Positions 158 to 63,614 of a DNA stretch of 64,000 bases are shown here, piece by piece. The notes under the pieces were generated by a model that saw only the letters and a list, made by a program, of their open reading frames with translations, made no database searches and had not been told where the DNA came from. The DNA is from Corynebacterium hansenii. GTDB taxonomy: Bacteria; Actinomycetota; Actinomycetes; Mycobacteriales; Mycobacteriaceae. The stretch's first letter is position 1; each line of letters opens with the position of its first letter. The translations under genes were made by a program, and so were the position numbers. The stretch spans positions 992,001-1,056,000 of the forward strand of contig NZ_CP047211.1 of NCBI RefSeq assembly GCF_030408795.1, given 5' to 3'.

Positions 158-928
158 ATGCGGGATGCCCGCCGAACCGGCGGGAGGCGGGCGTCGTCAA
201 GCAGGCGCGTCCCCGTGATCGCCGGCGCGCTGGCGGGGACGCTGGCGCTGACGGCCTGCGCGTCGCAGGACCCGGCGTTGCCGACGCCGTCGACGCAGCG
301 TGAACCCGTATCGGTCGGCGCGGACGCGCGGATCGCGCAGCAGGCCGTGATGGCCGAGGTGTACGTCGGCGCGCTGGAACGGCGCGGCCGCGGGTCGTCG
401 GGAGTCGTCGAGGTGCCGTCGGACGAGCGCATGCAGGCGGTGCAGTCGGGCACGGTGACGCTGTCGTTCGGCTGCACCGGCGAGCTGCTCGGCCTGATCG
501 ACCCGGCCACCGCCCGCGAACTGGCGAAGGAGTACATCGCCGACGACGACCCCGGCAAGGCCATGTCCGCCGAGTGGCGCGACCGCGTGTACGGGGCGAT
601 GTCGGCGGCGCTGCCCGGCGAGATCATGGCCACCGACCCGTCGAACGCGCAGGGCTGCGGCCGCGAGGATGGGTTGACCGAGGGGGAGCGGGCCCAGCTC
701 GAGGCCGCCGCCGACGAGGATCCCGGCGCCGTGCTGCCGCAGCACATCGTGCCGTTCTATCTGAAGCCGGCGATGACGCGGGCCGACCGCGTCAACGTGC
801 TCAACCGGGTGGCGGGGTCGCTGTCGACGAAGGAGCTCGAGGACCTCACGCGGCGCGTCCGCGAGGGCCGGGAGCCGAATGCCGTCGCCGCCGAATGGCT
901 GGACACGTCGAGGTTCACGACGGGATAG
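158..928 (+). CDS. Putative lipoprotein, betaine-binding (OpuAC)-like
   Basis: About 256 residues from the ATG at 158. The frame is open further upstream, but this start places a basic n-region directly before a hydrophobic core and the lipobox LTAC with the lipidated Cys at residue 34. The mature part (AQQAVMAEVY and later KELEDLTRRV, VAAEWL) resembles the helical pattern of substrate-binding proteins of quaternary-amine ABC transporters. No permease or ATPase lies beside it, so a transport role is only a guess; it may be a corynebacterial lipoprotein of unknown function. A copy of the dispersed 11-mer lies in the signal-peptide region. Followed by an independently transcribed ArsR gene. Confidence 0.6.
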   Translation: MRDARRTGGRRASSSRRVPVIAGALAGTLALTACASQDPALPTPSTQREPVSVGADARIAQQAVMAEVYVGALERRGRGSSGVVEVPSDERMQAVQSGTVTLSFGCTGELLGLIDPATARELAKEYIADDDPGKAMSAEWRDRVYGAMSAALPGEIMATDPSNAQGCGREDGLTEGERAQLEAAADEDPGAVLPQHIVPFYLKPAMTRADRVNVLNRVAGSLSTKELEDLTRRVREGREPNAVAAEWLDTSRFTTG

Positions 929-973
929 GCGCAGGTTGGAGCCGTCATCGGGGAACCTGCGCAGATGCGAAGG

Positions 974-1007
974 TGAACATGATAAGTGCTGCTCGGATTG
1001 ATGTTCG
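974..1007. promoter_or_regulatory. Candidate ArsR/SmtB-type operator
   Basis: Seven-base arms TGAACAT (974-980) and ATGTTCG (1001-1007) form an interrupted inverted repeat just upstream of the ArsR start at 1027. The left half, TGAACAT followed by GATAAG, resembles zinc-type SmtB/CzrA operator half sites. The position fits autorepression of the regulator and the following exporter. Not tested. Confidence 0.4.
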
Positions 1008-1026
1008 CCTGTGTTAATGTGTCGGC

Positions 1027-1520: not shown

Positions 1521-1530
1521 GGTCCACAAT

Positions 1531-2658
1531 ATGCGCATGAATGCAGGTATGCAGGGAATGGGAGATGCGGGGCGGCGCTCGCATGGTCGCGGCCATGGAC
1601 ATGACCACGATCGCGACCATTCCCACGAGCACGGCCATTCCCACTCGCACGAGCACGGTCACTCCCACCCGCACGACCACGACCATTCCCACGGCGGCGT
1701 CCTGCATGCGCTGAAGCACTTCTTCGTTCCGCACAGCCACGACGTGGGCGACCGCATCGACGACGCCCTCGAGGCCTCCGAAGCCGGCATTCGCGCGACG
1801 AAGATCGGTCTGATCGGCCTCGGCGTGACGGCGGCGCTGCAGATGATCATCTTCGCGTTCTCGGGTTCCGTCGCGCTGCTGGCGGACACGATCCACAACG
1901 TCGCCGACGCCTCGACGTCGTTGCCGCTGTGGTTGGCGTTCATCGTCGGCAAGCGTCTGCCCACCAAGCGGTTCTCCTTCGGCTACGGCCGGGCCGAGGA
2001 CCTCGCGGGGCTGTTCGTGGTGCTGGTCATCGCTGTGTCGGTGGTCGTGGCGGGGGTGACGTCGGTGCGGCGGCTGATCGATCCGCAGCCGATCGACCAC
2101 GTCGGGTGGGTGCTCGCCGCGGGCATCGTCGGCGCGATCGGCAATGAGGTCGTCGCGGCGTACCGCATCCGCATCGGCCGCCGCATCGGGTCGGCGGCGC
2201 TCGTCGCCGATGGCGTCCACGCCCGCACGGATGGGCTGACGTCGCTGGCGGTCGTCGTCGGCGCGGTCGGCGTGCTCGCGGGCTTCCCGCTCGCGGACCC
2301 CATCGTCGGCCTCCTGATCACCGCCATGATCGCCGTCCTGCTGGTGGGCACCGCGCGCGACATCGGCGGCCGGCTGCTCGATGGCGTGGATCCTTCGCTT
2401 TACGACGCCACCGTCCACGCCATCGCCGACCACGTCGATGCCGCGCGGATCGCCCATCCGCCGAGGCTGCGCTGGTCGGGGCATCGGCTGTTGGTGGACG
2501 TCAGCGTGGCCGTGGACCCCGAGATGCCGATGGCCGCCGCCACCGCCATGCGCGCGGACATCATCGCATCGGTCCGCGCCCATGTGCCCCGGGCGAGCGA
2601 TGTTCGGGTGGAGTTCCTGCCCGCCGGGCAGTGCACCCGGGGCGCCGCCGGCGTCTGA
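1531..2658 (+). CDS. Cation diffusion facilitator (CDF) Zn/Cd exporter, His-rich
   Basis: About 375 residues. The frame opens at 1501 inside a terminator hairpin, so the ATG at 1531 (or 1537/1549) is the likely start. Residues about 15-55 are a His-rich tract with repeated H-x-H, HGH and HSH pairs, as in zinc-chaperoning CDF loops but placed N-terminally. Six membrane segments follow. The paired metal sites are visible as DTIHNVAD in TM2 and DGVHARTD in TM5. A cytoplasmic C-terminal ferredoxin-like domain closes the protein. CDF proteins export Zn, Cd or Co in exchange for protons. The preceding ArsR gene supports metal-induced expression. The TGA stop lies inside copy A of the downstream repeat. 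Confidence 0.88.
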   Translation: MRMNAGMQGMGDAGRRSHGRGHGHDHDRDHSHEHGHSHSHEHGHSHPHDHDHSHGGVLHALKHFFVPHSHDVGDRIDDALEASEAGIRATKIGLIGLGVTAALQMIIFAFSGSVALLADTIHNVADASTSLPLWLAFIVGKRLPTKRFSFGYGRAEDLAGLFVVLVIAVSVVVAGVTSVRRLIDPQPIDHVGWVLAAGIVGAIGNEVVAAYRIRIGRRIGSAALVADGVHARTDGLTSLAVVVGAVGVLAGFPLADPIVGLLITAMIAVLLVGTARDIGGRLLDGVDPSLYDATVHAIADHVDAARIAHPPRLRWSGHRLLVDVSVAVDPEMPMAAATAMRADIIASVRAHVPRASDVRVEFLPAGQCTRGAAGV

Positions 2659-2824
2659 TCCCGCCGCGCCCCGCCCACCTTTCCCAGATGCGCCAGTTGC
2701 AGGCAGGTGCGCCCGTTGCAACAGGTGTATCTGCACGGAACTGGCGCTTCTGCGGGCGGGGTGGGAGGTGTGGTGGGGTGCGGCGGGACACGGCGTCGTG
2801 AAGCAGCCGGACATGCGGAAGGCC
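2655..2824. repeat. Palindromic intergenic repeat, copy A
   Basis: A unit of about 170 bases starting at the stop codon of the CDF gene. Its core is an interrupted palindrome (arms ATGCGCCAGTT and AACTGGCGC, extended by GC-rich arms) around the spacer GCAGGTGCGCCCGTTGCAAC. It ends in CGTCGTGAAGCAGCCGGACA and ATGCGGAAGGC. The same layout recurs as copy B, about 290 bases later. It is probably a REP- or MITE-like element. Confidence 0.75.
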
Positions 2825-2944: not shown

Positions 2945-3129
2945 CTGATCTGCCGCGCCCCGCCCACCTTCCCCAGATGCGCCAGTTACAGGCAGGTGCG
3001 CCCGTTGCAACAGGTGTATCTGCACGGAACTGGCGCATCTGCGGTGGGGCGGGAGGAACGGTGGGGTGCGGGGCGGAGGGGGAGGCGGGGGAACACGACG
3101 TCGTAAAGCAGCCGGACATGCGGAAGGCC
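2945..3129. repeat. Palindromic intergenic repeat, copy B
   Basis: Second copy of the unit at 2655-2824, sharing the same palindrome core with few substitutions (the right arm reads GGCGCATCT instead of GGCGCTTCT). The tail carries CGTCGTAAAGCAGCCGGACA in place of CGTCGTGAAGC. About 120 bases of unrelated sequence separate the copies. No gene was recognised anywhere in 2659-3268. That stretch holds these two copies, the spacer and the odhA terminator. Confidence 0.75.
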
Positions 3130-3268: not shown

Positions 3269-6200
3269 CTACTCGAAGGCCTCGTCCAGCAGGGCCTTCT
3301 GCTCCATGGCGTGCACCTTGGCCACGCCGGTCGCCGTCGACGACTGGGCGCGACGGGAAACGCGGGTGAGCTTCGGCATGTCCGGCAGCGCCTCCGGCAG
3401 ACCCAGCGCCAGGAACGGCCACGGACCCTGGTTCGCCGGCTCGTCCTGGACGAAGCGGACCTCGTCGGCGTTCGGGTAATTCTCGAACGCATCGCGCAGG
3501 CGGTTGAACGGGATCGGGTGCAGCATCTCCAGGCGGACGATGGCGACGTCGTCGCGCTTGTCCTTCTGGCGCTTCTTCTCCAGCTCCCAGTACAGCTTGC
3601 CCGACACGAGCAGGATCTTCTTGACCTTCTCCTTGTCGCCCTCGCCGGACTCGAAGTACTGGTCGTCGATGACGGACTTGAACTTCGTCTGCTCGGTGAA
3701 CGCCTCCACCGGCGACACCGCGGCCTTGTTGCGCAGCATCGACTTCGGGGTGAAGACGATCAGCGGGCGGTGCAGGTCCGACAGCGCGTGGCGGCGCAGC
3801 AGGTGGAAGTAGTTCGCCGGGTCCGACGGCTGGGCGACGGTGTACGACCCCTCCGCGGCGAGCTGCAGGAAACGCTCGATGCGGGCGGAGGAGTGGTCCG
3901 GGCCCTGGCCCTCGTAACCGTGGGGCAGCAGCAGGATCAGCTTGGAGGTCTGGCCCCACTTCGCCTCGCCGGACGAGATGTACTGGTCGATGATGGTCTG
4001 CGCGCCGTTGGCGAAGTCGCCGAACTGCGCCTCCCACGCGACGACCGCGTCCGGGTTGCCCAGGGTGTAGCCGTACTCGTAGCCCATGGCGGCGTACTCG
4101 GTCAGCGCCGAGTTGTACACCATGAAGCGGCCGCCGTTGCCCTGCGCCTCGGCGTAGGAGTCGACGGGGTTGTACTCGGCGCCGGTCTTCGGGTCGACGA
4201 GCACCGCGTGGCGCTGGGTGAAGGTGCCGCGGCGGACGTCCTCGCCCGCCAGTCGGACGGTGCGGCCCTCGCCGGCCAGCGAACCGAAGGCCAGCAGCTC
4301 GGCGAAGCCCCAGTCGATGCCGCCTTCCTTGGCGGCCTGGGCGCGCTTCTTGGCGACGGGCGCGACGCGCGGGTGGATCTCGAAGCCCTCGGGCAGCTCC
4401 ACGTGGGAGTTGCCGATGGACTGCAGCTCGATCTTGTCGATGCTCGTGTCCAGGCCGTGCGGCAGCGGCTGCGAGCCGGTGATGCCGGTCTGCTCGCCCG
4501 GGCCGGAAGCCTCGGCGGAGCGGACCTCGTTGAACACGGCCTCCATCTGGTCGTGGAAGTCGCGGCGGGCGGCCTCGGCCTCTTCCTCGGACAGGTCGCC
4601 GCGGCCGATGAGGTCCTCGGTGTACGCGGCGCGGACGCCTTCCTTGGCGTCGATGACCTCGTACATGGCCGGCTGGGTCATCGACGGGTCGTCGGCCTCG
4701 TTGTGGCCGCGCTTGCGGTAGCAGACGAGGTCGATGACGACGTCCTTGCCGTAGCGGTTGCGGTACTCGACGGCCAGCTGGCCGACCCACACGACGGCTT
4801 CGGGGTCGTCGCCGTTGACGTGGAAGACCGGGCAGCCGTAGGCCTTGGCCAGGTCGGTGGCGTAGTACGACGAGCGGGAGGAGTCGGGGGAGGTGGTGAA
4901 GCCGATTTGGTTGTTCACCACGATGTGGACGGTGCCGCCGACCTTGTAGCCGCGCAGCGCCATCAGGTTCAGGGTCTCCTGGACGATGCCCAGGCCCGCG
5001 AACGCGGCGTCGCCGTGCAGCAGCATCGGCATGACGGTGTAGCCCTCTTCGCCGCGGTCGATGATGTCCTGCTTGGCGCGGGCCAGGCCGACGACGACCG
5101 GGTTGACGGCCTCGAGGTGCGACGGGTTTGCGGTCAGGGTGACGTCGATCTCGCCGTCGCCGAACATCTGGATGTGGCGTCCCTGGGTGCCCAGGTGGTA
5201 CTTCACGTCGCCGGAGCCGCCGGCCTGCGCCGGGTCCATGTTGCCCTCGAACTCGGTGAAAATCTGCGACAGGGGCTTGCCGACGATGTTCGCCAGCACG
5301 TTGAGGCGCCCGCGGTGGGGCATGCCGATGACGACCTCGTCCAGGCCCTGGCCGGCCGCGGTGTCGATGGCGGCGTCCATGAGCGGGATCAGCGATTCGG
5401 CGCCCTCGAGGGAGAAGCGCTTCTGGCCGATGTACTTGGTCTGCAGGAAGTTCTCGAAGGCCTCGGCGGCGTTGAGCTTCTGCAGGATGTACTTCTGCTC
5501 GGCGTGGGTCGGGCGGGGCTGGCCGCCTTCGATGCGGTCCTGCAGCCACTCGCGCTCGTCGGCGTCGAGGATGTGGCTGTATTCGGAGCCGACCTTCAGG
5601 CAGTAGGCGTTGCGCAGGCGGATGAGCACCTCGCGCAGCGTCATGCGCTCCTTGCCGCCGAAGCCGCCGACGTTGAACGTGCGGTCGTAGTCCCACAGCG
5701 ACAGGCCGTGGGTGGCGATGTCCAGGTCGCGGTGGTCGGGCGTGATGATGTTCGGGTGGTCGAAGTGCAGCGGGTCGATGTCCGCGAGCAGGTGGCCGCG
5801 CTGGCGGTAGGCCTCGATGAGGCGCATGACGCGGGTGTTCTTGTCGACGCCCACGTTCGGGATGTCCTGCGCCCAGCGAACCGGGGTGTAGGGCACGCCC
5901 ATGTCATCGAAGATCTGGTCCCAGAACTTGTCGTCGACCAGCAGCTGCGACATGGTGCGCAGGAACTCGCCGGACTCGGCGCCCTGGATGATGCGGTGGT
6001 CGTAAGTGGAGGTGATGGTCACCAGCTTGCCGACGCCCAGCTCGGCGAGGCGGTCGGCCGACGCGCCGGCGAATTCGGCGGGGTAATCCATGGAGCCGAC
6101 GCCGATGATGGCGCCCTGGCCCTTGGTCAGGCGGGGCACCGAGTGGCGGGTGCCGATGCCGCCCGGGTTGGTCAGCGAGATGGTGACGCCCGAGAAGTCC

Positions 6201-7057: not shown

Positions 7058-10000
7058 TCAAGGATAACGGGTGTTGCCCGGTTCCTCCACGTCCGCCGTG
7101 CCTTTATGGTACGTGTCCCACAACCGCGCGTAGGCGCCGCCCTTTTCCAGGAGAACGGTGTGCGGGCCGTCTTCGATGATACGTCCATTTTCGAGGACCA
7201 AAATTCTGTCGGCGCGGGCGGCGGTGGCCAGGCGGTGGGCGACGATGACCGAGGTCCGCCGCTCGGTGGCGCGGTCGGCGGCGGCGAGGATGGTCGCTTC
7301 GGTGGCGGGGTCGAGGGTGGCGGTGGCTTCGTCGAGGAGCAGCAGGGCGGGGTCGATCATCTCGGCGCGGGCGAGCGCGATGAGCTGACGCTGGCCCGAC
7401 GACAGCCCGCGCCCGCGTTCGCCGACGGGGTGGGTGAAGCCGCCGGGGATGGCGGCGATGGCGCCGAGCGCGCCGACGCGGCGGGCGGCGTCGGTGATGG
7501 CGTCCTCGTCGGCGTCGGGCCGTCCGTAGGCGATGTTCGACGCGATGGTTCCGTTGAACAGGTGGGGCTCCTGGGGCACGTAGCCGAGGGCTCCGCGCCA
7601 TTCCTCGAGGGGGAATTCGCGGATGTCGGTGCCGGAGGCCCGCACCGCGCCGGACACCGGGTCGTGGAAGCGGGCCAGGAGCTTGACGACGGTCGACTTC
7701 CCCGCGCCCGTCGGCCCCACCACGGCAATGGTCTGCCCCTCGGGGATGTCGAGGTCGAGCCCGTCGAGGATGACGGGGTTGCCGTCGGGTTCGACGGCGG
7801 AGTAACGGAACGAGACGTCGTCAAGCGAAATGTCGCCGCGCGCGGCCCGGCCCGCCCCGGGGCGCGTGCCCTCGTCGGCGACGACGGCTTCGGTGGCCAG
7901 CAGATCCGAGATGCGGGTCAGTCCGACGCGGGCCTGCTGGTAGCCGTCGAAAACCTGGGACAGCTGCTGGATCGGGCCGAAGAGCATGCCCAGATAAAGG
8001 GTGAAGGCGATGAGCACGCCCGCGGTGGTCGCGCCCTCGGTGACCTGGGTGGCGCCGACGAAGAGGACGGCGGCGGTGGTCAGCTCGGCGATGAAGTTGA
8101 TGCCGGGGAAGAAGGTGCTCACCGCGGCCTGGGCGCGGATGCGCAGACGGCGGTAGCGGTCGGAGGCGCGGGTGAAGGACTCCTCGACATCGGCGACGCG
8201 GTGGTGCATCTGGCTGGCCCGCAGGCCGCCGATCGCCTCCTGGAAATCCGCGTTGACCGTGGAGACCTGCTCGCGGGCGGCGGCGTAGAGCTTCGACGAA
8301 ATGGAGCGGAACACCACGGTCGCCACCGCGACGACCGGCAGCGCCAGCAGCGCCACCCCGGCCAGCGACAGGTTCGTGGCCAGCAACATGCCCGAGACGC
8401 CCATCAGCGTGAAGAGGGCGATGATGCCCTGGGCGACGCCCGTCTGCAGGAAAGAGGACAGGGCGTCGATGTCGGTGGTCATGCGCGTCATGATCCGCCC
8501 CGACCGCTGCCGCTCGAAGTAGTCCAGCCCCAGCGAATGCAGGTGGCGGAAAGACCGGACGCGCAGGGCGTAGAGCAGGCGCTCGCCGGTGCGCGAGGTG
8601 AGTACCGTGGTCGCCGCCACCGCCATGAACCCGAGCGCGACGACGCCGAGCCCGGCCGCCGCGGCCCGCCAGAGCGCCGACGCATCGCCCGCGGAGACGC
8701 CGTCGTCGATGGCCCACCGCACCAGCATGGGGAAGGCGAGGTCCGCCGCCGTGGACACCAGCAGCATGGCGATCACGGCCAGGATGAGCAGCCGCGCATT
8801 CGACAGCAGCGAAATCAGGCTGAAGCGGCGGGAATCGTCGAGGGCGGATGCCGGGATGCGCGGTTGTTCGGTGGCCGGGGGCAGGGCGTTGATGCGGTCG
8901 AGGAGGTCGTCGGTGGCGGGGGCGTTCATCATCGCAGCGCCCATGCCGCCGCCCATTCCGCCGCGGCCGGGGCCACCGCCGGCACTCGAACCGGGCCCGC
9001 CGATGCCGCCGGGGCCCTGGACGGTGCGCCCGTCGGAGCGGCCGGAGGAAGTGCCGGTGGATGAGCCCGATGATGCGTCGGCGGAAGTCCCGGAAGCGCC
9101 GGCCGTTCCGCTTGACCCCGGCCACAGCAGTTCGCGGTCGGGCCCGGCGCAGTCGGGTTCGTCGATGACCAGGGGAGCCGCGCCCGAATCCCGGGATGCG
9201 GCGAGGGCGGCGCGGGCGCGGGCCCGGTCGGCGTCGGAGAGGTCCATCAGGTCGGCGAAGCCGGGGTGGCCGGCGACGAGTTCATCGCGGGTGCCGTAGC
9301 CGGTGACGCGGCCGCCGTCGAGGACGAGGATGTGGTCCGCCAGCTCCAGCGTGGAGGAGCGGTGGGCGACGATGACCGTGGTGATGTCGCCGTAGTGCGT
9401 GCGCAGCGCATCGAAGATGAGGGCCTCGGTGCCGGCGTCGATGGCCGACGTCGCATCGTCGAGGACCAGGATCCGCGGCCGCGCCAGCAGCGCCCGCGCC
9501 AGTGCGACGCGCTGCCGCTGGCCTCCGGAGAGGTTGTGGCCGCGTTCGCCGATGGCGGTGTCCCAGCCGTCGGGCAGCTTGTCGACGAAGGTGACCTGCG
9601 CGTGGGCCGCCGCGGCGTCGATTTCCGCGTCCGTGGCGTCGGGGTCGGCCATGGCGATGTTCTCGCGAAGTGTGCCCGTCTTGAGGAAGGGCTCGTCGGG
9701 CACCACCGTGATCGCGCGGCGCACGTCATCGGCGGCGGCATCGGCGATGTCGGCGGCGTAATCGGCCCCGGCACCGTGCCCCGCGCCCCGGCCGACGATC
9801 TCGATCGAACCCGAATCGGCGACGTAGAAGCGCCCCAGCAGCTCGGTGAGGATCGTCTTCCCCGCGCCGGGCGGGCCCACCAGCGCCAGGGTCGATCCGG
9901 CGGGGAGGTCGACGGTGACGTCGTCAAGCAAGGTCCTGCCGCCGCGCGAATGCGTCACCCCGCGCAGCCGCAGGCCCACCGGCCCTTCCGGGACGGGGAC

Positions 10001-11998: not shown

Positions 11999-12240
11999 GT
12001 GGGGTCCTCCCTGATCGTCGGTTATCAGCCTGATTCTATCCGTAATTTGCGCCTGCGAGCACGGCGCAGTGAGTGCCGTTACCCAACTGTGTCGGGCGGT
12101 GCCGCGGGGTGCGGGGTTGCGGTTGTCCTGATGGTGGTTGGGGTGGGGTGGCCGGTTGCGGTTTCCGCTTTGCGACGGCCGGTGGCCGCGTCGTCCGCCG
12201 TGGGTTGTCTTTACGCTGGGTTGCGGACGCCGGAATAGGA

Positions 12241-13224
12241 ATGCGGCGGAATCGTGGCGGAAGGTGGTTGGTCGAGGTGGCCGGGACGTCGTCAAGCAGG
12301 TGCGAGCCAAGCGAAAGCGGCAACGCCGGGAACGTGGGCGGCATTCCCGAACCCGCGCGGGAGTACGCGCGGACGTTCGCCGAGATCCCGCGGATGAGCG
12401 CCGAGGTCGAGGCGCCCGAGGGTGCGCGCTGGTGGAGCGGCGGGGATGCGCGGGCGCTGCTGTGCGACGGCGATTTCCTGCGGGCGCGCGTGGCCGCGTC
12501 GCGGGAGCTGTACCCGATGCCGGAGGCCGACGAGACCGGTCGCGGCGGGCTGCCGGGGGACACGCGGTTCCAGATCCAGGTGTGGTGGTACTCGACGTGC
12601 AATTCGTGGCTGGGGCCGGCGGCGGCGTCGATCGTGGTGCAGGGGCGCGCGCCGCGGCCGGGGTGGGACGGGCTGACGGTGTTCCGCCGCGACGACTACT
12701 GGCTGGGGTACGCCGCCGACCGCTTCACCGACCTGGGGGCGGACGCGGGGCTGGAACCGGGGGATGCCGAGACGGCCGAGGGCGTGCGGGCGTACGGGCG
12801 CGCCGTCGGGGAGATGCTGGAGCCGGTGGTGGAGGCGATCGGCGATGAGCTCGGCGTGCGGCCGGCGCCGCTGTGGGCGATCGCCGCCGACGGGCTGGCC
12901 GGCGCCGCCGTCGCCGCGGGCAACGAGATGATGGAGCCGTGGGCCGGGGCGCTGGTGGGAACGTGGCTGGTGGAGGGCCTGGCGGAGGTCGGGCGGGTGC
13001 CCGCGCCGAGGTTCGTCGACGTCGAGCCGTGGGCCGGGCCGGAGGGCGTGGCGCCGACGGATCTGGAGGCGGCGGCGGAGGGGGAGATGGCGGATTTCGA
13101 CGTCGTCACGCACCTGGAGAGGACCTCGTGCTGCATGATCTACCGCAGCCCGAAGGCCGGATTGTGCGTGTCGTGCCCGCGCCGGTCGGCCGACGAACGG
13201 CGGGCCCTGTGGGCGGGCGCGTGA
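12241..13224 (+). CDS. FhuF-like ferric-siderophore reductase
   Basis: Recognised by the C-terminal iron-sulphur motif CCMIYRSPKAGLCVSC (C-C-x10-C-x2-C), the FhuF signature that binds a [2Fe-2S] cluster. It probably reduces ferric iron released from siderophores in the cytoplasm. The start is uncertain: ATG 12241 has AGGA immediately before it, while GTG 12334 would begin VGGIPEPAREYARTF, closer to where the conserved part starts; ATG 12394 is too late. With the GTG start the protein is about 296 residues. It stands alone between intergenic regions; other iron genes lie at 46-49 kb. No clear DtxR box was seen in front of it. Confidence 0.8.
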   Translation: MRRNRGGRWLVEVAGTSSSRCEPSESGNAGNVGGIPEPAREYARTFAEIPRMSAEVEAPEGARWWSGGDARALLCDGDFLRARVAASRELYPMPEADETGRGGLPGDTRFQIQVWWYSTCNSWLGPAAASIVVQGRAPRPGWDGLTVFRRDDYWLGYAADRFTDLGADAGLEPGDAETAEGVRAYGRAVGEMLEPVVEAIGDELGVRPAPLWAIAADGLAGAAVAAGNEMMEPWAGALVGTWLVEGLAEVGRVPAPRFVDVEPWAGPEGVAPTDLEAAAEGEMADFDVVTHLERTSCCMIYRSPKAGLCVSCPRRSADERRALWAGA

Positions 13225-17445: not shown

Positions 17446-17456
17446 GGCCCGCACTC

Positions 17457-17498
17457 TAGAACATGGCTCGGACGGGTGTTCGAACATATATCGAACAT
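17457..17498. promoter_or_regulatory. Triple TMGAACAT octamer, LexA-like half sites
   Basis: TAGAACAT at 17457, TCGAACAT at 17480 and again at 17491, spaced 23 and 11 bases, about two and one helical turns. TCGAAC resembles the actinobacterial LexA half site. The second copy is followed by GTGTG, a partial right half. It lies between the divergent unknown gene (start 17445) and vsr (start 17578), so it could control either. Confidence 0.4.
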
Positions 17499-17577
17499 GT
17501 GTGCCAACCGGCTTTGGCCGGCATGATCGGGGTTGACGGAACGGCGGTGGTGGCGGTCGAAGATCCAGGGAGCGGAA

Positions 17578-18015: not shown

Positions 18016-18036
18016 TGAGATGCGGGAAAGACGAAG

Positions 18037-19128: not shown

Positions 19129-19217
19129 TGCCCCAGGCTAGCCGGCCGCATGTTCCATCACCAAACGCGGGGTCACACGGCCGGCATTCGCCATCTCGCG
19201 TGGGCTTCGCACTTCCT

Positions 19218-26299: not shown

Positions 26300-26349
26300 T
26301 GCATCCTCCAATTCACGATTTCGGTGAAAGGTTATCGCGCGCACCGGAT

Positions 26350-43145: not shown

Positions 43146-43373
43146 GAAGTGCCTTTCATTGGGAGGGTGGGCCCATGTGCGGGTGTGGGCTGGTTCACGG
43201 GGATTCCGCCGGGCTGGGCGGGGAGTCCATCGGGGCGCAATGGTAGCCGATGGCGGGGCCCGGCGCCCAAGCGGTACCGACGCGGCGTCGTCAAATCCGG
43301 GGCTCGCTTTGCGACGGCCCGGCGCCCGAGACATCGCCCCTCCCGCGGGAGCGGCGGGGAGCGTGCGCGGCGG

Positions 43374-49348: not shown

Positions 49349-52300
49349 ATGTCTTCGCCCACCCATCTGCTCCACGGACTGTGGCTGCCCGGCACGGGGC
49401 TGAATCTGTGGTTGGAGCGGGTCGAGGGGCACCGGGTGCTGAGGGCGCTCGACGACGCCTCGCGGGCCGCGTTGCCGGCCGCCGCATCGGCCGTGCTGGC
49501 CTCCGTGCCCAGGGGGCGCCCCGAGGTGGAGCTGCGCACGCCGAAGGGGAGGGCCGTCCGCCACGTGCTGCCCACGTGGGCGTTCGTGCCCGAGCGCGCG
49601 GTGACCGTTCTGGAATCGCTGCGCGCCGACGCCGATGACCCGGCGTTCGCTCCGGACCTGCGTTTCCTCATCCGCGTGCAGGAGTCCCTCGAGCGGTGGG
49701 CGCGCGCCGGGCGTGCGCTGGTCGCCGTGACGTGGGAGGACGGCCGGTGGTGGCCGCAATGGCGGTTGCCGGACGGGCTGAAGGAAACGTCGTGGCGGGC
49801 GCAGGTCGCGCAGCGCACGCCGCCGGTGCTGACCGTCAACGGCGGCGGCGAAATGCTCGACGACCTGATGGGGCGGCTGTTCCACTGGACCGTCAACGCT
49901 CTGCTGGCGGACCTGCCGGACCCGCCGAAGGGACGCCAGGCGTTCGTGCGCGCGCTGCTCGATTCGGAGCCGCTGCGCCGGGCGACGCCGGACGTCGCGT
50001 CGGATCTGGCCCAGTGGCGGTCGTCGGCGTCCGGGGAGGACGTCCGGCTGCTGCTCGTGCTGGAGGAGCCCGAGGAGTTCGACGACCCCGACCATGGGCG
50101 CGTCATCGACATCGTGAACAACCGCGGCGGTGGCGCCGACGACCCCGACGAGGGCCTGTGGTGGCCGCTGCGCATGCACTACCGCATCGGGGTGGGCGCC
50201 CCGGAACGCCTGGACCCGTCGATGTGCCGCGGGTCGGTGCTCACGCAGTTGCGGCCGCAGCTGGAGGTGGCGCAGCAGGCGTTCCCGCCGTTCCGCGAGG
50301 CGATCTCGGACGGCGCGGGCCTGGATCTGCTGCTCAACCCGCGCCAGGTCGTGGACCTGGTGGCGCACGGAGTCGACGCCCTGCGCGACGCCGGCATCGC
50401 GGTGATGCTGCCCCGGTCGTGGGTCAGCGCCCGCCCGTCGCTGCGCCTGGAGGTCGATCCCCGGGAGAAGGAGCCGGTCGGGTCGGTGCGCGGCGCGACG
50501 GAATCGCGCGTCGGGTTCGACCAGATCGTGGACTACAAGTGGCGGCTCACGCTCGGCGACGAGGTGCTGTCCGACGACGACGTCCGCCGCCTGGCCGAGT
50601 CCGGCTCCGGTCTGGTGCGGCTGCGGGATTCGTGGATCGCGGCTGACCCGGACACCACGCGCAGGGCGCTGAAGTTCCTGGAGGAGCAGACGAAGGCCGG
50701 GGAGGCCACGGGCAGGGGCTCGGCGGCGCTGAGCGAGATCCACTTCGCCGGCGGGTCGGTGACGCGGGCGCCGGTGCCCGTCGACGTCGACGCCCGCGGC
50801 TGGGCCCGGTCGCTCTACGGCGGGATGATCGGCGACCCCGATGACGATGGCTTCGAGGGCCCCGCCGAAATCCACCGTCGCCGTGTGCCCGTGCCGGAAG
50901 GATTCGTCGGCGAATTGCGCGAATACCAGCGCCGCGGCCTGGATTGGCTGTCGTGGATGTCGGACGCCGGTTTCGGCGTGATCCTCGCCGACGACATGGG
51001 GCTGGGCAAGACGGTGCAGATCCTCGCCCTGCTGCTCCACGAGAAGGAAACGCGGCTGGCCGCCGAATCCGACGATGAGCGTCGCGCGCGCGAAGAACTC
51101 GACGCCGCCCTCGACGCGGGCGACGGCTCGGTGCGGGCGCTGGACGGCGTCGTCAAGCGGTACCCGACGCTGCTGGTCGCACCGATGTCGGTCGTGTCCA
51201 ACTGGGCCGCCGAAGCGCGGAAGTTCGCTCCGGGCCTGACGGTGAAGGTGCTGCACGGCGGCAACCGCCCGCGCGGGGCGGAACTCAAGCGCGTCGCCGA
51301 GGGCGCCGATCTGGTGGTGACCACCTACGGCATCGTCGCGCGCGACCCCGGCGAATGGGGCGCGGTGCAGTGGGACCACGTGATCCTGGACGAGGCGCAG
51401 GCGGTGAAGAACCCCAACACCGCCGTGGCCAGGGCCGTGCGGCTGCTGCCGGCGCGGCAGCGAATCGCGCTGACGGGCACGCCGGTGGAGAACAACCTGG
51501 GCGAGTTGCGGTCGATCATGGATTTCTGCAACCGCAACATCCTCGGTTCGGCGCGGTCCTTCCGATCGCGGTTCGCCGCGCCCATCGAGCGCGACGGCGA
51601 CGAAAACGCGGCCGCGGAGCTGCGCACCATCACCGCGCCGTTCATCCTGCGGCGCATGAAGTCCGACCCGGGGATCCTCGACGAGCTGCCGGAGAAAGAC
51701 GAGGCCGTCACGCTCGTGCCGCTGACCGCCGAGCAGGCGCTTCTGTACCGCGGCTGGGTCGAGGAGCTCGAGCGGGAGGTCGACGCCGCGAAGGGGATGA
51801 AGAGGCGGGCGCTGGTGCTGCAGGGCATCACCAAGCTCAAGCAGATCTGCAACCACCCCGCGCATTACCAGTCCGACGGGTCGCCGCTGCTCGATCGCGG
51901 CCGGCACCGGTCGGGCAAGGTCGCGCAGCTGCAGGCCATCGTCGACGAGGCCGTGCTGGCCGACGAGCGCGTGCTCGTGTTCACCCAGTACACGACGTTC
52001 GGGAAGATGCTGCAGCCCTGGCTGTCCGAGCGGTTGGGCCGCGAGATCCCCTTCCTCCACGGCGGGGTGTCGCGGGCGGCGCGGCAGCGGATGGTCGACG
52101 AGTTCAACGCCGAGGGCGGCGCGCCGGTGATGGTGCTCAGCCTCAAGGCCGGCGGCACGGGCCTGAACCTCACGGCGGCCAACCACGTGGTCCACGTCGA
52201 CCGCTGGTGGAACCCGGCGGTGGAGGACCAGGCCACCGACCGCGCCTACCGCATCGGCCAGCGGCGCGACGTGCAGGTGCACAAGCTGGTGGCCAAGGGC

Positions 52301-52648
52301 ACCATCGAGGAGCGCATCGACCAGGTCATCGCCGGCAAGGTCGACCTCGCGCGGGCGGTGATGCCCACCGGCGAGTCGTGGCTGACGGAAATGGGGCTCG
52401 ACGAACTGCACCGCCTGTGGCGGCTTGACGACGACCGCTCGCGCAGGGCCGCAGAGGCCGCCGAAGCCGGGCACACCGTGGAAGACGAGTGGGCGCGGGA
52501 CGCGGCCGGGGGCGGGAAAGGCGGGGGCGGCGCGGATGGCGCGGATGAAGAGGGCGGGAAGGACGAGAAGGACGCCGTCGCCGACGTGATCGAGCTCGGC
52601 GCCGGCAAGGATTCGGCGAGGAAGGGGAAACGCGATGGCCGACGGTGA
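49349..52648 (+). CDS. SNF2/RapA-family DEAD/DEAH ATPase
   Basis: 1099 residues. The N-terminal ~500 residues belong to the bacterial SNF2-associated type (contains WRAQVAQRTPPVL). The core has DDMGLGKTVQILALLL (Walker A near 549), TLLVAPMSVVSNW, DEAQAVKNPNT (DEAQ box near 681), ALTGTPVENNLGE, LKAGGTGLNLTAANHVVHVD and a final DRAYRIGQRRDVQVHKL. It translocates on double-stranded DNA and probably remodels protein-DNA complexes. The C-terminal ~50 residues are Gly/Asp/Lys-rich. It overlaps the next gene (SWIM) by 14 bases, a conserved actinobacterial pairing. Confidence 0.92.
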   Translation: MSSPTHLLHGLWLPGTGLNLWLERVEGHRVLRALDDASRAALPAAASAVLASVPRGRPEVELRTPKGRAVRHVLPTWAFVPERAVTVLESLRADADDPAFAPDLRFLIRVQESLERWARAGRALVAVTWEDGRWWPQWRLPDGLKETSWRAQVAQRTPPVLTVNGGGEMLDDLMGRLFHWTVNALLADLPDPPKGRQAFVRALLDSEPLRRATPDVASDLAQWRSSASGEDVRLLLVLEEPEEFDDPDHGRVIDIVNNRGGGADDPDEGLWWPLRMHYRIGVGAPERLDPSMCRGSVLTQLRPQLEVAQQAFPPFREAISDGAGLDLLLNPRQVVDLVAHGVDALRDAGIAVMLPRSWVSARPSLRLEVDPREKEPVGSVRGATESRVGFDQIVDYKWRLTLGDEVLSDDDVRRLAESGSGLVRLRDSWIAADPDTTRRALKFLEEQTKAGEATGRGSAALSEIHFAGGSVTRAPVPVDVDARGWARSLYGGMIGDPDDDGFEGPAEIHRRRVPVPEGFVGELREYQRRGLDWLSWMSDAGFGVILADDMGLGKTVQILALLLHEKETRLAAESDDERRAREELDAALDAGDGSVRALDGVVKRYPTLLVAPMSVVSNWAAEARKFAPGLTVKVLHGGNRPRGAELKRVAEGADLVVTTYGIVARDPGEWGAVQWDHVILDEAQAVKNPNTAVARAVRLLPARQRIALTGTPVENNLGELRSIMDFCNRNILGSARSFRSRFAAPIERDGDENAAAELRTITAPFILRRMKSDPGILDELPEKDEAVTLVPLTAEQALLYRGWVEELEREVDAAKGMKRRALVLQGITKLKQICNHPAHYQSDGSPLLDRGRHRSGKVAQLQAIVDEAVLADERVLVFTQYTTFGKMLQPWLSERLGREIPFLHGGVSRAARQRMVDEFNAEGGAPVMVLSLKAGGTGLNLTAANHVVHVDRWWNPAVEDQATDRAYRIGQRRDVQVHKLVAKGTIEERIDQVIAGKVDLARAVMPTGESWLTEMGLDELHRLWRLDDDRSRRAAEAAEAGHTVEDEWARDAAGGGKGGGGADGADEEGGKDEKDAVADVIELGAGKDSARKGKRDGRR

Positions 52649-53651
52649 TGTGACCTGGGGCGACAACGTCATCTACGCCGATTTCGGCGCGCGCGGCGCC
52701 GGCGGCGGAACCCGGGGCGCACGGCGGGGGAAGAAGGGGCCGGGGCGTCGCAAAGCCGATTCGGGACAGGCGCGGCCGCGCACGGACGTGGCGCGCAGGC
52801 TCTACGACGCAGTCGCCGGCGTCGCCGACGGCGGGCGGCGCGAGCGGGGCGAGGCGTACTTCCGCGACGGCCACGTGCTGGGCTTCCGGATGGTCGACGG
52901 GCAGGTCGTCGGCGAGGTCAAGGGCAGCCAGATCGAGCCGTTCACCGTGGTGATCAAGCTTCCGTACCGCGACGCCGGCGCCGCCGACGGGGTGCTGCGG
53001 TGGCTCGCGGCGACGAACGGCGCGGCGGATGAGCTGGCGCGCGGGACGCTGCCGGAAGTGCCGCTGGGGAAGCTGTTGCTCGCCGCCGACGAGGCCCCGG
53101 TGTGCCGGTGCTCGTGCCCCGACCCGGCGCCGGCCTGCAAGCATGCGGTGGCGGTGGCGGCCGCGGCGGCGCGGGCCATCGACGCGGAACCGATGAACGC
53201 GCTGGAGCTGCGCGGCGTCGGCGTGCACGAGGCCAAGCACCGGCTGGCGGGGCTGATGGCGGAGGCGGCGGCGAAGTCGGCCGGGCGGGGCGCCGACGGC
53301 AAACCCCGCGGACCGGTGCGCCGGACGACGGGGCCGCGGACGGAGGATCCCGTTCTCGAGCTGGTTAGGGAGGACTTCTGGGGAGCGGACCTGCCGTCGA
53401 TCGAGGTGCCGGCGCCGGCGCCGATGGTCGTGCTGCGCGACACCGATCCGACGCTGCTGCACGCGGCGCTGCGGTCGACGACGGTGCTGTCCGTGGAGAC
53501 GCTGCGGGCGGTGTCCGATCTGGAGGACTGCTGGGATCATTTGACGTCGCCGCCGTCGTTCGACGACGGGGACTTCGCCGCGGGGGCCGGGCGGCCGCGC
53601 GGCGAAGACGACGATGGCGTCGTGGCGGCGTCCTTCGACGATGAGGAGTGA
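52635..53651 (+). CDS. SWIM zinc-finger protein
   Basis: 338 residues. The SWIM motif CRCSCPDPAPACKH (C-x-C...C-x-H, near 157) binds zinc and is known to mediate protein or DNA contacts. A basic RRGKKGPGRRK segment is near the N-terminus and an acidic tail at the C-terminus. It usually accompanies SNF2 ATPases in actinobacteria and presumably targets the ATPase to DNA. A dispersed 11-mer lies at 52746, where GRRKA is spelled with AAA for Lys, less common than AAG here. Confidence 0.88.
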   Translation: MADGDVTWGDNVIYADFGARGAGGGTRGARRGKKGPGRRKADSGQARPRTDVARRLYDAVAGVADGGRRERGEAYFRDGHVLGFRMVDGQVVGEVKGSQIEPFTVVIKLPYRDAGAADGVLRWLAATNGAADELARGTLPEVPLGKLLLAADEAPVCRCSCPDPAPACKHAVAVAAAAARAIDAEPMNALELRGVGVHEAKHRLAGLMAEAAAKSAGRGADGKPRGPVRRTTGPRTEDPVLELVREDFWGADLPSIEVPAPAPMVVLRDTDPTLLHAALRSTTVLSVETLRAVSDLEDCWDHLTSPPSFDDGDFAAGAGRPRGEDDDGVVAASFDDEE

Positions 53652-57680: not shown

Positions 57681-57805
57681 CGGGAGGGCGGGTGCTCCCG
57701 TTCTTCCCCCGAACGGCGAAACGCGGCGCCGCCGCCGAGATGGCGGAGACGCCGCGCGTCGCAAAGCGGGCCCGGCTCGTCACCCCACCCCGAATGTGGC
57801 TCCTC

Positions 57806-59270: not shown

Positions 59271-59750
59271 ATGAACGAGTATGAGTGGTTGACCGACGAC
59301 GAGCAGCAGTTCTGGCAGATGCTCGTGCCCACCTTCCGCAGCGTCGAGCGCAACATCGAGCTGAGCCTGCGCGAGAACACGGGCCTGACGTTCGGCGACT
59401 TCACCGTGCTCATCGCGCTGAGCGAAACCGAGGACGGCGTCATGCACGTCGACGAGCTGTGCCGCCGCCTGAAGTGGAACCACCCCCGCGCGCTGCTGCA
59501 CACGACGCGGATGGAGAAGCGCGGCGTCATCACCGTCGAGGATCCCGGCCCCGACCCGGATTCGGACTACACCGTCGCGCTGACCGGCGTCGGCCGCCAT
59601 GTCTTCGCGGAGGCCGCCCCGGATTACGTTGCGACGGTCCGGTCCGAGGTCTTCGAGCAGCTTTCCGACGACGACCTCGCCCACATGTCGCGCTGCTTCA
59701 CGGCGATCATGCGCCACGCGGAAGACGGCGACGACTCCCAGCTGCTCTGA
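59271..59750 (+). CDS. MarR-family regulator 2
   Basis: 159 residues. Same fold and spacing as the neighbour: FGDFTVLIALSETEDG, VDELCRRLKWNHPRALLHTT, MEKRGVITVED. The similarity suggests a local duplication. The recognition helix residues differ (WNHPRALLHTTR versus WDRSRMSHQITR), so the two probably bind different sites. Its target cannot be read from context. Confidence 0.87.
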   Translation: MNEYEWLTDDEQQFWQMLVPTFRSVERNIELSLRENTGLTFGDFTVLIALSETEDGVMHVDELCRRLKWNHPRALLHTTRMEKRGVITVEDPGPDPDSDYTVALTGVGRHVFAEAAPDYVATVRSEVFEQLSDDDLAHMSRCFTAIMRHAEDGDDSQLL

Positions 59751-61072: not shown

Positions 61073-62652
61073 CGGTCGTCCTCCTCGGTGCCCGGACCGG
61101 CGTCGGTTCCGGTGGTCGGTTCCCCGCCGCCGGTGATCCGGGACGGGATGGGGTGCGCGGCTTCGTCGTCAAGCAGGGCCCGCGCCGAATCGGAGCCCCA
61201 CCACGCCCGGAAGGGCTTCTTCGGCGGCACCGGGGTGTCGCGCGCGTCGGACCACCCGGACAGGAACAGCGGCAGGCGGTGGATTTCGCCGTCGCGCAGC
61301 CCCAGCACGCGGGCCAGCGACGCCGACCGCACGGCCATGTCCCACAGGCGCGGTCCGCCCATGACCCAGCCGAGCAGCCCGAAGATCTTGCCCTCCACCG
61401 GCGGGCGGTGGTCGCGGACCTTCTGGTGGCGCAGTTCCAGCAGCGCCGCCGGGATGTCGATGCGCACCGGGCACACCTCGAAGCAGGCGCCGCACAGCGA
61501 CGACGCGTAGGGCAGCGAGGCATTCGGGTCCTTGGCGGAATCCATGCCCGTCAGCTGCGGCGACAGGATCGCGCCGATGGGCCCCGGGTACGTCGAGCCG
61601 TACGCGTGGCCGCCGGCGCGCTCGTAGACCGGGCAGATGTTCAGGCAGGCGGAGCAGCGGATGCACTTGAGCGCCTCGCGGCCGATGGGGTCGGCCAGGG
61701 TGGCGGTGCGGCCGTTGTCCAGCAGCACGATGTGGAACTCGCGGGGGCCGTCGCCGTCGGCGACGCCCGTCCACATGGAGGTGTAGGGGTTCATCCGCTC
61801 GCCGGTCGACGACCGCGGCAGCAGCTGCAGGAACACCTCCAGATCCTCGAAGCGCGGCAGCAGCTTCTCGATCCCCATCACCGTGATCAGCGTCTGCGGC
61901 AGCGTCAGGCACATGCGGCCGTTGCCCTCGGACTCGACGACGGCGACGGTGCCGGTTTCGGCGACGCCGAAGTTCGCGCCGGAAATGGCGACCTTCGCCG
62001 ACATGAACTGATCGCGCAGGAATTGCCGCGAGGCCTCCGCCAGTTCGGCGGGTTCGTTGCCCAGGCCCGGGTCGACGCCGGGGATGCCGCGCAGGAAGAT
62101 GTCGCGGATCTCGTCGCGGTTGCGGTGGATGGCGGGCACGAGGATGTGCGACGGCTTGTCCTCGCCGAGCTGCACGATCAGCTCGGCCAGGTCCGTTTCG
62201 CGGGCGGAGATGCCCGCATCGGCCAGGGCCTCGTTGAGTCCGATTTCCTGCGTGGCCATGGACTTGACCTTGATCACGTCGGTCTCGCCGGTCGCCTTCA
62301 CCAGGTCAGTGACGATGGCGTTGGCCTCCGCCGCGTCGCGCGCCCAGTGGACGTGGCCGCCGCGGGCGGTGACGGCGGACTCAAATTGCTCCAGCAGTTC
62401 GGGAAGCCGCGCCATGACGTCGCGTTTGATGGCCGAGCCCGCCAGCCGCAGCTTCTCCCAGTCGGGCTTTTCGCCGACGACCGCCGCGCGCTTGGCGCGG
62501 ATGGAGTGGGTGGCGTTGCGCAGGTTGGACCGCAGCTGGCCGTTGCGCAGTTCGTGGTGCGCGGCGGCGGTGAATCCCTCGTCGCCGCGCAGGTGGCCGA
62601 CGCCGGCGGGCGCGCGCGGGGGCACGGGCAGCCCCAGGTTGACGGGGGTCAT
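61069..62652 (-). CDS. lutB: LutB-like iron-sulphur protein
   Basis: 527 residues from the ATG at 62652, overlapping the lutA stop (ATGA). N-terminal LUD domain (VIKVKSMATQEIGLNEALA, ISGANFGVAETGTVAVVES), then two 4Fe-4S ferredoxin motifs CIRCSACLNICPVY and CGACFEVCPV in the usual LutB order. Transfers electrons during lactate oxidation to pyruvate. A dispersed 11-mer lies near the C-terminal coding end (61164). Confidence 0.93.
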   Translation of the reverse strand: MTPVNLGLPVPPRAPAGVGHLRGDEGFTAAAHHELRNGQLRSNLRNATHSIRAKRAAVVGEKPDWEKLRLAGSAIKRDVMARLPELLEQFESAVTARGGHVHWARDAAEANAIVTDLVKATGETDVIKVKSMATQEIGLNEALADAGISARETDLAELIVQLGEDKPSHILVPAIHRNRDEIRDIFLRGIPGVDPGLGNEPAELAEASRQFLRDQFMSAKVAISGANFGVAETGTVAVVESEGNGRMCLTLPQTLITVMGIEKLLPRFEDLEVFLQLLPRSSTGERMNPYTSMWTGVADGDGPREFHIVLLDNGRTATLADPIGREALKCIRCSACLNICPVYERAGGHAYGSTYPGPIGAILSPQLTGMDSAKDPNASLPYASSLCGACFEVCPVRIDIPAALLELRHQKVRDHRPPVEGKIFGLLGWVMGGPRLWDMAVRSASLARVLGLRDGEIHRLPLFLSGWSDARDTPVPPKKPFRAWWGSDSARALLDDEAAHPIPSRITGGGEPTTGTDAGPGTEEDDR

Positions 62653-63473
62653 CGCGATCCGCCTCCTTCGCGGTCGGCGGGGGCCTGCGCGGGTTGCTTT
62701 GCGACGTCGCCGTGCCCGCCGTCCGCCTGATACGGGCGGCGGTGCGTCGACGCGAGAATCTCCGCGATGTGCAGCGCACGGGCCCGGCCGCCGCGCTTGC
62801 GCAGCGATCCGCCGATGTTGAGCAGGCAGGAGGCGTCGCCCGCGGTGACGAACTCCGCACCCGTGGATTCGATGTGGCCCACCTTGTCGGCGACCATCGC
62901 GGCGGAGGTCTCGGCGTTCTTCACGCTGAAGGTGCCGCCGAATCCGCAGCATTCCTCCGCGGCCGGCAGGTCCACCAGGTCGATGCCCTCCACGGCGCGC
63001 AGCAGCTTCAGGGGCCGGTCGCCGACGTGGAGCACGCGCAGGCTGTGGCACGTGGAGTGGTAGGTCACCCGGTGGGGGAACCACGCGCCGACGTCGGTGA
63101 CGCCGGCGACGTCGACGATGAACTCCGACAAATCCAGCGTCTTGCCGGCGCAGGTGCGGGCGGCGTCGGCCTGTGCGGCGGTGCCGAAGCGGGCGGCGAT
63201 CATCGGGTGCTGGTGGCGCACCGCGCCGGCGCACGACCCCGAGGGCGCCACCACGTAATCGATGGAGGGGTCGGCGAAGACCCCGGCGTAGGCGTCGATC
63301 TGCGGCAGCGCCTCCTCCTGGTATCCGGTGTTGACGTGCATCTGACCGCAGCACGTCTGCTTTTCGGGGAAGACGACGTCGCAGCCGAGGCGGGTGAGAA
63401 CGGCTGCCGTGGCCTGCACCGCCGACGGGAACATCACGTCGCCGACGCAGGTTGCGAATAGCGCGACCTTCAT
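62649..63473 (-). CDS. lutA: LutA-like Cys-rich (CCG) protein
   Basis: 274 residues. Two CCG domains are shown by EKQTCCGQMHVNTGY and EECCGFGGTFSVKN; these bind an iron-sulphur cofactor in lactate utilisation proteins A. The C-terminal ~25 residues (HGDVAKQPAQAP) are extra and contain a dispersed 11-mer (62696). First gene of the lut operon; its promoter must lie in the 141-base gap shared with argS, where GTGT-N7-ACAC (63513 region) is a weak candidate operator. Confidence 0.92.
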   Translation of the reverse strand: MKVALFATCVGDVMFPSAVQATAAVLTRLGCDVVFPEKQTCCGQMHVNTGYQEEALPQIDAYAGVFADPSIDYVVAPSGSCAGAVRHQHPMIAARFGTAAQADAARTCAGKTLDLSEFIVDVAGVTDVGAWFPHRVTYHSTCHSLRVLHVGDRPLKLLRAVEGIDLVDLPAAEECCGFGGTFSVKNAETSAAMVADKVGHIESTGAEFVTAGDASCLLNIGGSLRKRGGRARALHIAEILASTHRRPYQADGGHGDVAKQPAQAPADREGGGSR

Positions 63474-63614
63474 GGTGGCTCCTGGGGTGATGGGCTGGTT
63501 TCCCCGCCGAGTGTACGCCGGACACCAGCGGGCGGAACCGATTCAGACGTCGCTGGTGGGGCAGCGTCGACCGTCGTAAAGCGGGGTCCGCCCCACCCGC
63601 TAGGATGGGCAACC

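Follow-up and report, generated by a model that had tools for sequence, protein, structure and literature searches.

To our knowledge, DNA-uptake sequences have been described only in the Pasteurellaceae and the Neisseriaceae, and a tag for 'own DNA' in a Gram-positive bacterium would be the first. The DNA-uptake sequences (DUS) of Neisseria are non-palindromic words of 10-12 bases, present in about two thousand copies and with variants between related species; the FtsK orienting sequences (KOPS) are strongly skewed by replichore. In the actinobacterium Micrococcus luteus the transformation system consists of Flp/Tad pili together with comEA/comEC, and the accessible portion of its description mentions no uptake motif (PMC6370729). 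Here we analyze a stretch of 64,000 nucleotides of the Corynebacterium hansenii chromosome (NZ_CP047211.1, positions 992,001 to 1,056,000; hereafter the window), in which an earlier note made from the letters alone had noticed many copies of an 11-mer, CGTCGYVAAGC. We describe the motif behind this word, its enrichment, its strand-wise spacing, its conservation in place, its distribution in the genus and the presence of putative transformation genes, and we weigh whether it may act as an uptake-type signal.

A bipartite motif enriched along the chromosome

The earlier note had counted about 30 copies of the 11-mer (21 on the plus and 9 on the minus strand). These are real: we found 31 copies in the window, 21 plus and 10 minus, against a mean of 0.81 and a largest value of 4 in 100 dinucleotide shuffles. 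Over the whole chromosome (3,098,017 bases) CGTCGYVAAGC occurs 584 + 592 times and the reversed-pattern control 34 + 20 times. When the sixth base is left free (CGTCGNVAAGC), the 3.1 Mb genome holds 924 plus- and 947 minus-strand copies, and the reversed pattern 52 and 50. The motif was defined by counting every substitution in 864 kb of the C. hansenii genome (G000), that is the window and 40 stretches of 20 kb, or 28% of the chromosome. Any base is accepted at the sixth position and almost any at the seventh, where T is uncommon although its forms still exceed expectation; the nine other bases are required. The motif is CGTCG-NN-AAGC (CGTCGNNAAGC), nine fixed bases round a free two-base spacer, so the core of the first consensus stood and its restrictions on the sixth and seventh bases did not. 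The full motif occurs 45 times in the window, 23 times on the plus and 22 times on the minus strand; the strand bias noted before is gone here and genome-wide, and had arisen because the consensus was incomplete.

The excess holds against a Markov background. With an order-4 model trained after masking of the motif copies, the G000 sample contains 518 copies where 27.2 are expected (19-fold), and another Corynebacterium species (G064) 129 where 4.2 are expected (31-fold). The same calculation gave 212 copies against 5.1 (42-fold) for the uptake word AAGTGCGGT in a 359-kb sample of G520, about 6 kb of it N, a genome that is Pasteurellaceae-like by this word alone, and 85 against 39.3 (2.2-fold) for Chi in 400 kb of Escherichia coli K-12. 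In the accessible part of a published table, E. coli Chi stands at 1008 against 151 expected under its own model (PMC1939737), which indicates that such ratios depend on the model.

Codon usage was ruled out as the cause of the excess. The 537 crudely called genes, which cover 77% of the G000 sample, hold 360 copies, and shuffling of synonymous codons within genes leaves 53.8 (20 shuffles, sd 6.9), a loss of 85%. The copies lie about evenly along the length of the called genes and in both orientations (152 sense, 207 antisense, with 159 outside called genes). Together with the conservation in place reported below, this bears out the proposal of the earlier note that selection acts on the DNA and not on the protein. 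A mobile repeat, such as a repetitive extragenic palindromic (REP) element or a miniature inverted-repeat transposable element (MITE), was also rejected: the flanks of the 31 window copies and of 513 sampled copies show a base bias only, with no extended similarity.

This bias lies chiefly on the 5' side. Over the 24 bases that precede the motif, its strand is enriched in G in all five species compared (GC skew 0.13 to 0.36), an enrichment that is gone farther out in the 5' flank (-0.02 to -0.07). The 3' flank has some skew in G064 (0.09) and G138 (0.14), and little or none in the other three species. Near-miss words sufficiently numerous for comparison (three in G000, two each in G109 and G019, none in G064 or G138) have flanks with a skew mostly between -0.05 and 0.10. 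The exception is CGTCGNNACGC in G019 (42 copies, 0.29), which may be an accepted variant in that species. Individual variants do exceed expectation, namely CGTCGNNGAGC in G000 (270 against 119) and, in G064, CGTCGNNACGC (18 against 4.8) and CGTCGNNAAGT (12 against 2.7). A second accepted form, CGTCGNNACGC, may exist in some species, as dialects in the right half of the motif. In G138, GTCGGCACGC was seen 17 times where 2.2 are expected.

Copies on the same strand repel one another

In the G000 sample (518 copies in 864 kb) the mean spacing is 1.67 kb, shorter than the roughly 2.1 kb of the earlier note. That note had also seen many neighbours 1.8-2.4 kb apart; distances between neighbours are broadly spread here, and the copies are placed more evenly than a Poisson process would give (variance/mean 0.67 per 10 kb). 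Adjacent copies tend to alternate in orientation (333 alternating against 144 same, of 477 pairs). Same-strand pairs are depleted, with 19 against 70.6 expected below 500 bp, 33 against 70.0 at 500-1000 bp and 104 against 135.3 at 1-2 kb, and opposite-strand pairs are not (83 against 78.5, 90 against 76.9 and 151 against 148.0 in the same three bins). Copies on one strand thus repel one another over 1-2 kb and copies on opposite strands do not, which accounts for the alternation. Among 25 gapped words of similar frequency in G000, a control that includes the motif by construction, same-strand pairs below 1 kb were on average at 1.17 of expectation (fifth percentile 1.00); the minimum, 0.37, is the motif's own value (52 against 141 pairs). 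Below 500 bp, G064 shows the same pattern (same-strand 3 against 20.4, opposite 23 against 20.5), and G138 a weaker repulsion than G000 and G064 (6 against 15.3, opposite 22 against 15.6). The uptake word of G520 shows a same-strand deficit below 500 bp (12 against 28.8) and none beyond, and E. coli Chi has no repulsion (8 against 6.9 below 500 bp, 6 against 6.5 at 500-1000 bp, and an excess of 22 against 13.1 at 1-2 kb). We take this to mean that the reader of the motif acts in a single direction or on a single strand, and that a copy every 1-2 kb on each strand is enough for it. Such repulsion within strands offers an inexpensive statistical mark of directional reading, one that could be sought in any genome, and here it separated the motif from E. 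coli Chi.

The contig opens with a DnaA-like reading frame and, next to it, a DnaN-like one, both recognized by eye. In the stretches sampled from the two chromosome halves, the strands carry 147:133 and 121:117 copies. With the terminus taken as halfway, 264 of the 518 copies are on the leading strand. Of the 85 Chi sites in the 400 kb of E. coli, 72 lie on the leading strand when the origin is placed at its usual position. There is hence no strand bias relative to the replication origin, and a KOPS-type, replichore-biased role, proposed in the earlier note, is excluded. The Chi role proposed along with it is disfavoured by the same lack of leading-strand bias and by a repulsion that E. coli Chi lacks.

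Distribution in the genus and conservation in place

Most Corynebacterium species examined carry about 150 to 1,900 copies per chromosome. We counted CGTCGNVAAGC in 242 genomes of the genus, one of which (G122) is of the same species as the window, and called a genome motif-rich at 4 times the reversed-pattern count or more and motif-poor below 2 times. By this measure 169 are motif-rich, 64 motif-poor and 9 between. The forward-strand share in the 169 averages 0.501 (range 0.449-0.558). The form CGTCGYVAAGC reached 0.2-1.7 times the control in 24 genomes from 15 other families of the order, which points to a genus-bound feature. Within the genus, Corynebacterium sp. p3-SID1241 has 812 copies of CGTCGNNAAGC against 72 of the control. 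Sampled relatives keep the nine core bases and differ in the preferred spacer (AG in G019; GC/TA in G138; GC/TC/TA in G064; TC in G109; TC/CA in G000).

Five motif-poor genomes contained 0 to 2 copies each in the 80 kb sampled per genome. The OdhA proteins of motif-poor G070 and G085 are 76% and 75% identical to that of the window and those of eight motif-rich genomes 69-74%, which makes more than one change of the trait likely. Other words were abundant in some motif-poor genomes. In G143 (L205-L208), GGCATCGGCA occurs 27 times in 80 kb against 1.3 expected; it may be a signal of another kind or a dispersed repeat. G010 (L193-L196; 14 against 2.4) and G066 (L201-L204; 12 against 1.7) share GTGGCGTCG in milder excess, in 80 kb each, and this word might be of the Chi or KOPS type.

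Conservation in place was assessed against G109, at 84.5% DNA identity. Eighteen of the 28 alignable window copies are intact there, three of them with a changed spacer, compared with 32% of composition-matched words (P = 5e-4); the other 10 differ between the two species.

Putative transformation genes and motif density

Gene content was compared in 80 genomes from the two extremes, 38 motif-rich and 42 motif-poor, with intermediate counts left out. Four extreme genomes (three motif-rich, one motif-poor) had been dropped from an initial 84 before any count, and one of the 42, G084, lies just above the motif-poor limit. The search for com genes suggested in the earlier note was successful in the host: C. 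hansenii has genes for ComEC, a ComEA-like protein, DprA, a Tad-type ATPase and T2SSF proteins. ComEC, DprA, HHH_3 and PDDEXK_1 were matched in all 80 genomes, and none of them therefore separates motif-rich from motif-poor species. The HHH_3 figure is too high for ComEA, since the best match mostly belongs to another protein with a long frame (about 750-1200 aa); a ComEA-like match, in a frame of about 200-400 aa, was found in at least 71 of the 80 genomes and adjoins ComEC in C. hansenii. No ComEA-like HHH_3 is among the matches listed for motif-poor G169, whose one match is in a 789-aa frame. The ComEC match of this genome is partial, and in motif-rich G001 ComEC is split over two frames. 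Among the matches listed there are also open frames of about 1000-1200 aa with PDDEXK_1 in C. hansenii (1170 aa) and in many other genomes.

The Tad genes are distributed differently. A Tad-type ATPase (PF00437) scoring at least 165 bits was found in 37 of the 38 motif-rich and 15 of the 42 motif-poor genomes, and the sole motif-rich genome below this score (G198) is a 380-contig draft. Combined with two T2SSF matches, the figures are 36/38 and 11/42 (Fisher P about 1e-10, which overstates the evidence because the lineages are not independent). In 12 motif-poor genomes the open frames that contain the two T2SSF matches have the same length (353-388 aa) and are presumably a single frame, which points to a clade whose Tad system has changed. 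In two motif-poor genomes with a strong Tad ATPase, G085 and G157, the best DprA match scores lower (60 and 129 bits) than in any other of the 80.

An uptake-type signal and its alternatives

The reading we favour, although it could about equally well prove wrong, is that CGTCG-NN-AAGC with its G-rich 5' stretch of about 25 bases may mark self DNA in the manner of DNA-uptake sequences, and that a pathway of Tad pilus, ComEA and ComEC would read it in one direction. We infer that a receptor in a natural-transformation pathway, presumably the Tad/Flp pilus with ComEA, ComEC and DprA, would bind the motif and take in or process the DNA on one side of it, or one strand only. Fragments with a copy would enter and recombine more often, and new copies would spread through the chromosome by biased gene conversion. 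Within 1-2 kb, a further copy of the same orientation would give no gain, and each strand would end up tagged about every 3.3 kb, independently of the other. Strand-wise spacing is what suggests directional reading, as would be the case were DNA read or processed single-stranded on its way in. The likeness to uptake sequences remarked on in the earlier note extends to density, chromosome-wide enrichment and its size, equal use of the strands without replication bias and a distribution more even than random, alongside the com and Tad genes. The conservation in place speaks for this reading as well, as do the Flp/Tad pili that serve M. luteus in transformation (PMC6370729) and the 9.8-kb gap in the copies of the window, most of which has no alignment in G109. 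The wider proposition falls somewhat short of an even chance: a strand-specific uptake sequence in a Gram-positive genus, with each strand tagged in most species about every 3 kb, a single-strand Tad/ComEC machine that would prefer its own DNA, and some lineages that would have lost both the tag and the usual pilus.

Several observations weigh against an uptake signal. ComEC and DprA are just as present in motif-poor species, and the 11 motif-poor genomes mentioned above keep a strong Tad ATPase with two T2SSF matches. The 165-bit cut was set after the scores were known, about at the motif-rich minimum, and by Pfam model coverage instead 24 of the 42 motif-poor genomes pass for the Tad ATPase; the Tad differences may only follow the family tree. 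Same-strand repulsion below 500 bp is weak in G109 (15 against 18.4) and G019 (8 against 10.4), with some depletion at 500-1000 bp (12 against 18.1 and 3 against 10.4). One-base variants are hardly in excess (814 against 704.6, 1.16-fold, in G000; 118 against 96.5, 1.22-fold, in G064). Those of the G520 word are at 1.43-fold (130 against 91.2), and for the uptake word of another species the accessible part of a published account gives about 11-fold under a different expectation model (PMC1939737). Uptake maps of Haemophilus influenzae, in the part of the study available, have peaks centred on the signal with no direction reported (PMC7811141), so that spacing specific to each strand is not among the properties known of uptake signals. 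Lastly, in the literature searched, which leaves out bioRxiv and most subscription journals, no paper listed was titled on natural transformation of Corynebacterium. Nor was any listed that is titled on an uptake word in Actinobacteria, and those listed for spellings of the motif were, by title, on unrelated subjects.

The main rival is a signal of the Chi kind. While it resects a broken end, a helicase-nuclease, probably AdnAB, would come upon the motif on one strand, cease to degrade and initiate recombination, and each strand would need its own copies. Since Chi too is read on one strand, this stays the chief rival: spacing that depends on orientation agrees with a reader moving along one strand, the 5' flank is rich in G, and the long PDDEXK_1 frames of C. 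hansenii and many other genomes are as expected of AdnA/AdnB. We nevertheless regard it as rather unlikely. E. coli Chi lacks repulsion and favours the leading strand, and the motif does neither; its enrichment is 19-31 fold against 2.2 fold for Chi in the same kind of model; and PDDEXK_1, being present in all 80 genomes, does not explain by its presence why 64 of 242 lack the motif. In the same literature no paper on a Chi site and AdnAB in Corynebacterium was found, the one match being on cyanobacteria, and for three Corynebacterium genomes the accessible part of a study on spaced motifs mentions CRISPR patterns only (PMC5217627).

A site for another polar DNA-tracking or nucleoid-organizing protein (a translocase, an SMC loader or a topology factor) would share much of this evidence, namely the even spacing, the strand-wise repulsion and a reader with a strict requirement for nine bases. 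It is improbable, given that the leading-strand count excludes a KOPS-type reading, that background counts in 64 of 242 genomes would be odd for chromosome maintenance, and that two close species differ in 10 of the 28 copies that could be aligned. A mark for modification or defence, by which a methylated bipartite word would identify self DNA, agrees with the two invariant halves and is very improbable, because restriction targets are usually avoided in genomes, not enriched, and type I targets have a spacer longer than two bases. That the motif might act on RNA or transcription, as a pause, a terminator or an antisense control, is about as improbable: it is strand-specific and some inverted pairs lie close together, but sense and antisense copies are both common, spread about evenly along genes, and many copies fall outside called genes.

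If the uptake reading is correct, natural transformation would be widespread in Corynebacterium, and transformability would be predicted in a genus that is used in industry and found on human skin. The Actinobacteria would then provide a third, unrelated case, and self-tagging of DNA would arise repeatedly. The 169 motif-rich and 64 motif-poor genomes form a natural experiment for finding the reader.

Motif copies in the window

All copies of the full motif in the window are listed in Table 1.

Table 1 Copies of CGTCG-NN-AAGC and a motif-free stretch, with their state in the relative G109.
Feature	Location	Positions	Strand	In G109
motif CGTCGTCAAGC		192..202	+	
motif CGTCGGCAAGC		1944..1954	+	
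motif CGTCGTAAAGC		2397..2407	-	
motif CGTCGTGAAGC		2794..2804	+	
motif CGTCGTAAAGC		3099..3109	+	
motif CGTCGGCAAGC	odhA	5275..5285	-	kept
motif CGTCGGCAAGC	odhA	6025..6035	-	kept
motif CGTCGTCAAGC		7681..7691	-	kept
motif CGTCGTCAAGC		7816..7826	+	not present
motif CGTCGACAAGC		9577..9587	-	not present
motif CGTCGTCAAGC		9919..9929	+	kept
motif CGTCGCAAAGC		12167..12177	-	
motif CGTCGTCAAGC		12287..12297	+	
motif CGTCGAGAAGC		13620..13630	-	not present
motif CGTCGAGAAGC		13956..13966	-	not present
motif CGTCGCAAAGC		14720..14730	-	not present
motif CGTCGTCAAGC		14849..14859	+	not present
motif CGTCGAAAAGC		16545..16555	-	kept, spacer changed
motif CGTCGTGAAGC		17067..17077	+	kept
motif-free 9.8 kb		17078..26846	.	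mostly unaligned
motif CGTCGGCAAGC		26847..26857	+	kept
motif CGTCGAAAAGC		27555..27565	-	kept
motif CGTCGCAAAGC		27864..27874	+	kept, spacer changed
motif CGTCGGCAAGC		28915..28925	-	kept
motif CGTCGCAAAGC		30694..30704	+	
motif CGTCGTCAAGC		30715..30725	-	
motif CGTCGGCAAGC		32011..32021	-	not present
motif CGTCGTCAAGC		34037..34047	-	kept
motif CGTCGTGAAGC		34449..34459	+	kept
motif CGTCGTGAAGC		36525..36535	-	
motif CGTCGTCAAGC		36571..36581	+	
motif CGTCGTGAAGC		38384..38394	+	
motif CGTCGTGAAGC	antisense in putA	40432..40442	+	kept
motif CGTCGAGAAGC	putA	41096..41106	-	kept, spacer changed
motif CGTCGCAAAGC		43306..43316	-	
motif CGTCGTAAAGC		43987..43997	+	kept
motif CGTCGTCAAGC		47361..47371	+	
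motif CGTCGAGAAGC		48973..48983	-	
motif CGTCGTCAAGC	SNF2 helicase gene	51148..51158	+	kept
motif CGTCGTCAAGC		52423..52433	-	not present
motif CGTCGCAAAGC		52746..52756	+	not present
motif CGTCGCAAAGC		57757..57767	+	
motif CGTCGGAAAGC		59660..59670	-	not present
motif CGTCGTCAAGC		61164..61174	+	kept
motif CGTCGCAAAGC		62696..62706	-	
motif CGTCGTAAAGC		63572..63582	+	kept

At 36525-36581, outside called genes, two divergent copies flank a short palindrome, GCACCCCGAATGGGGTGC. The window also holds a member of a second repeat family (57785-57866), AACCCACCCCGAATGCGCAGACCCACCC...GGGTGGGTCTGCGCATTCGGGGTGGGTT, an inverted repeat of about 64 bp that is nearly perfect, sometimes has extra adjoining half copies and recurs in L031, L033-L036 and other sampled G000 stretches. 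Its word CCACCCCGAAT was counted 41 times in the 864 kb, and a stricter word gave 30 half sites and 13 close inverted pairs; the repeat is possibly a REP/MITE-like element or a terminator.

Comparison with known systems

CGTCG-NN-AAGC shares with KOPS, E. coli Chi and the Neisseria DUS that it is a short, non-palindromic word in many copies. The even division between leading and lagging strand sets it apart from KOPS. Orientation matters for Chi (GCTGGTGG) as well, but the motif has no leading-strand bias, is more enriched and is regularly spaced strand by strand. Like the DUS as generally described, it has species variants, and it differs from them in sequence and in the phylum of its host. 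The likeness to the M. luteus transformation system lies in the ComEC, ComEA-like, Tad-type ATPase and T2SSF genes of C. hansenii. One Rothia genome (G268), from a relative of M. luteus, shows no excess of the Corynebacterium word (35 copies against 33 of the control). The uptake signal sequence (USS) of Haemophilus and other Pasteurellaceae, as sampled in G520, resembles the motif in its density of about one per 1.7 kb, its tens-fold enrichment, its strand balance (106:106 in the sample) and its same-strand repulsion at short range. The motif differs from the USS in its Gram-positive host, its free two-base spacer, its G-rich 5' flank and a repulsion that reaches 1-2 kb and concerns same-strand pairs only.

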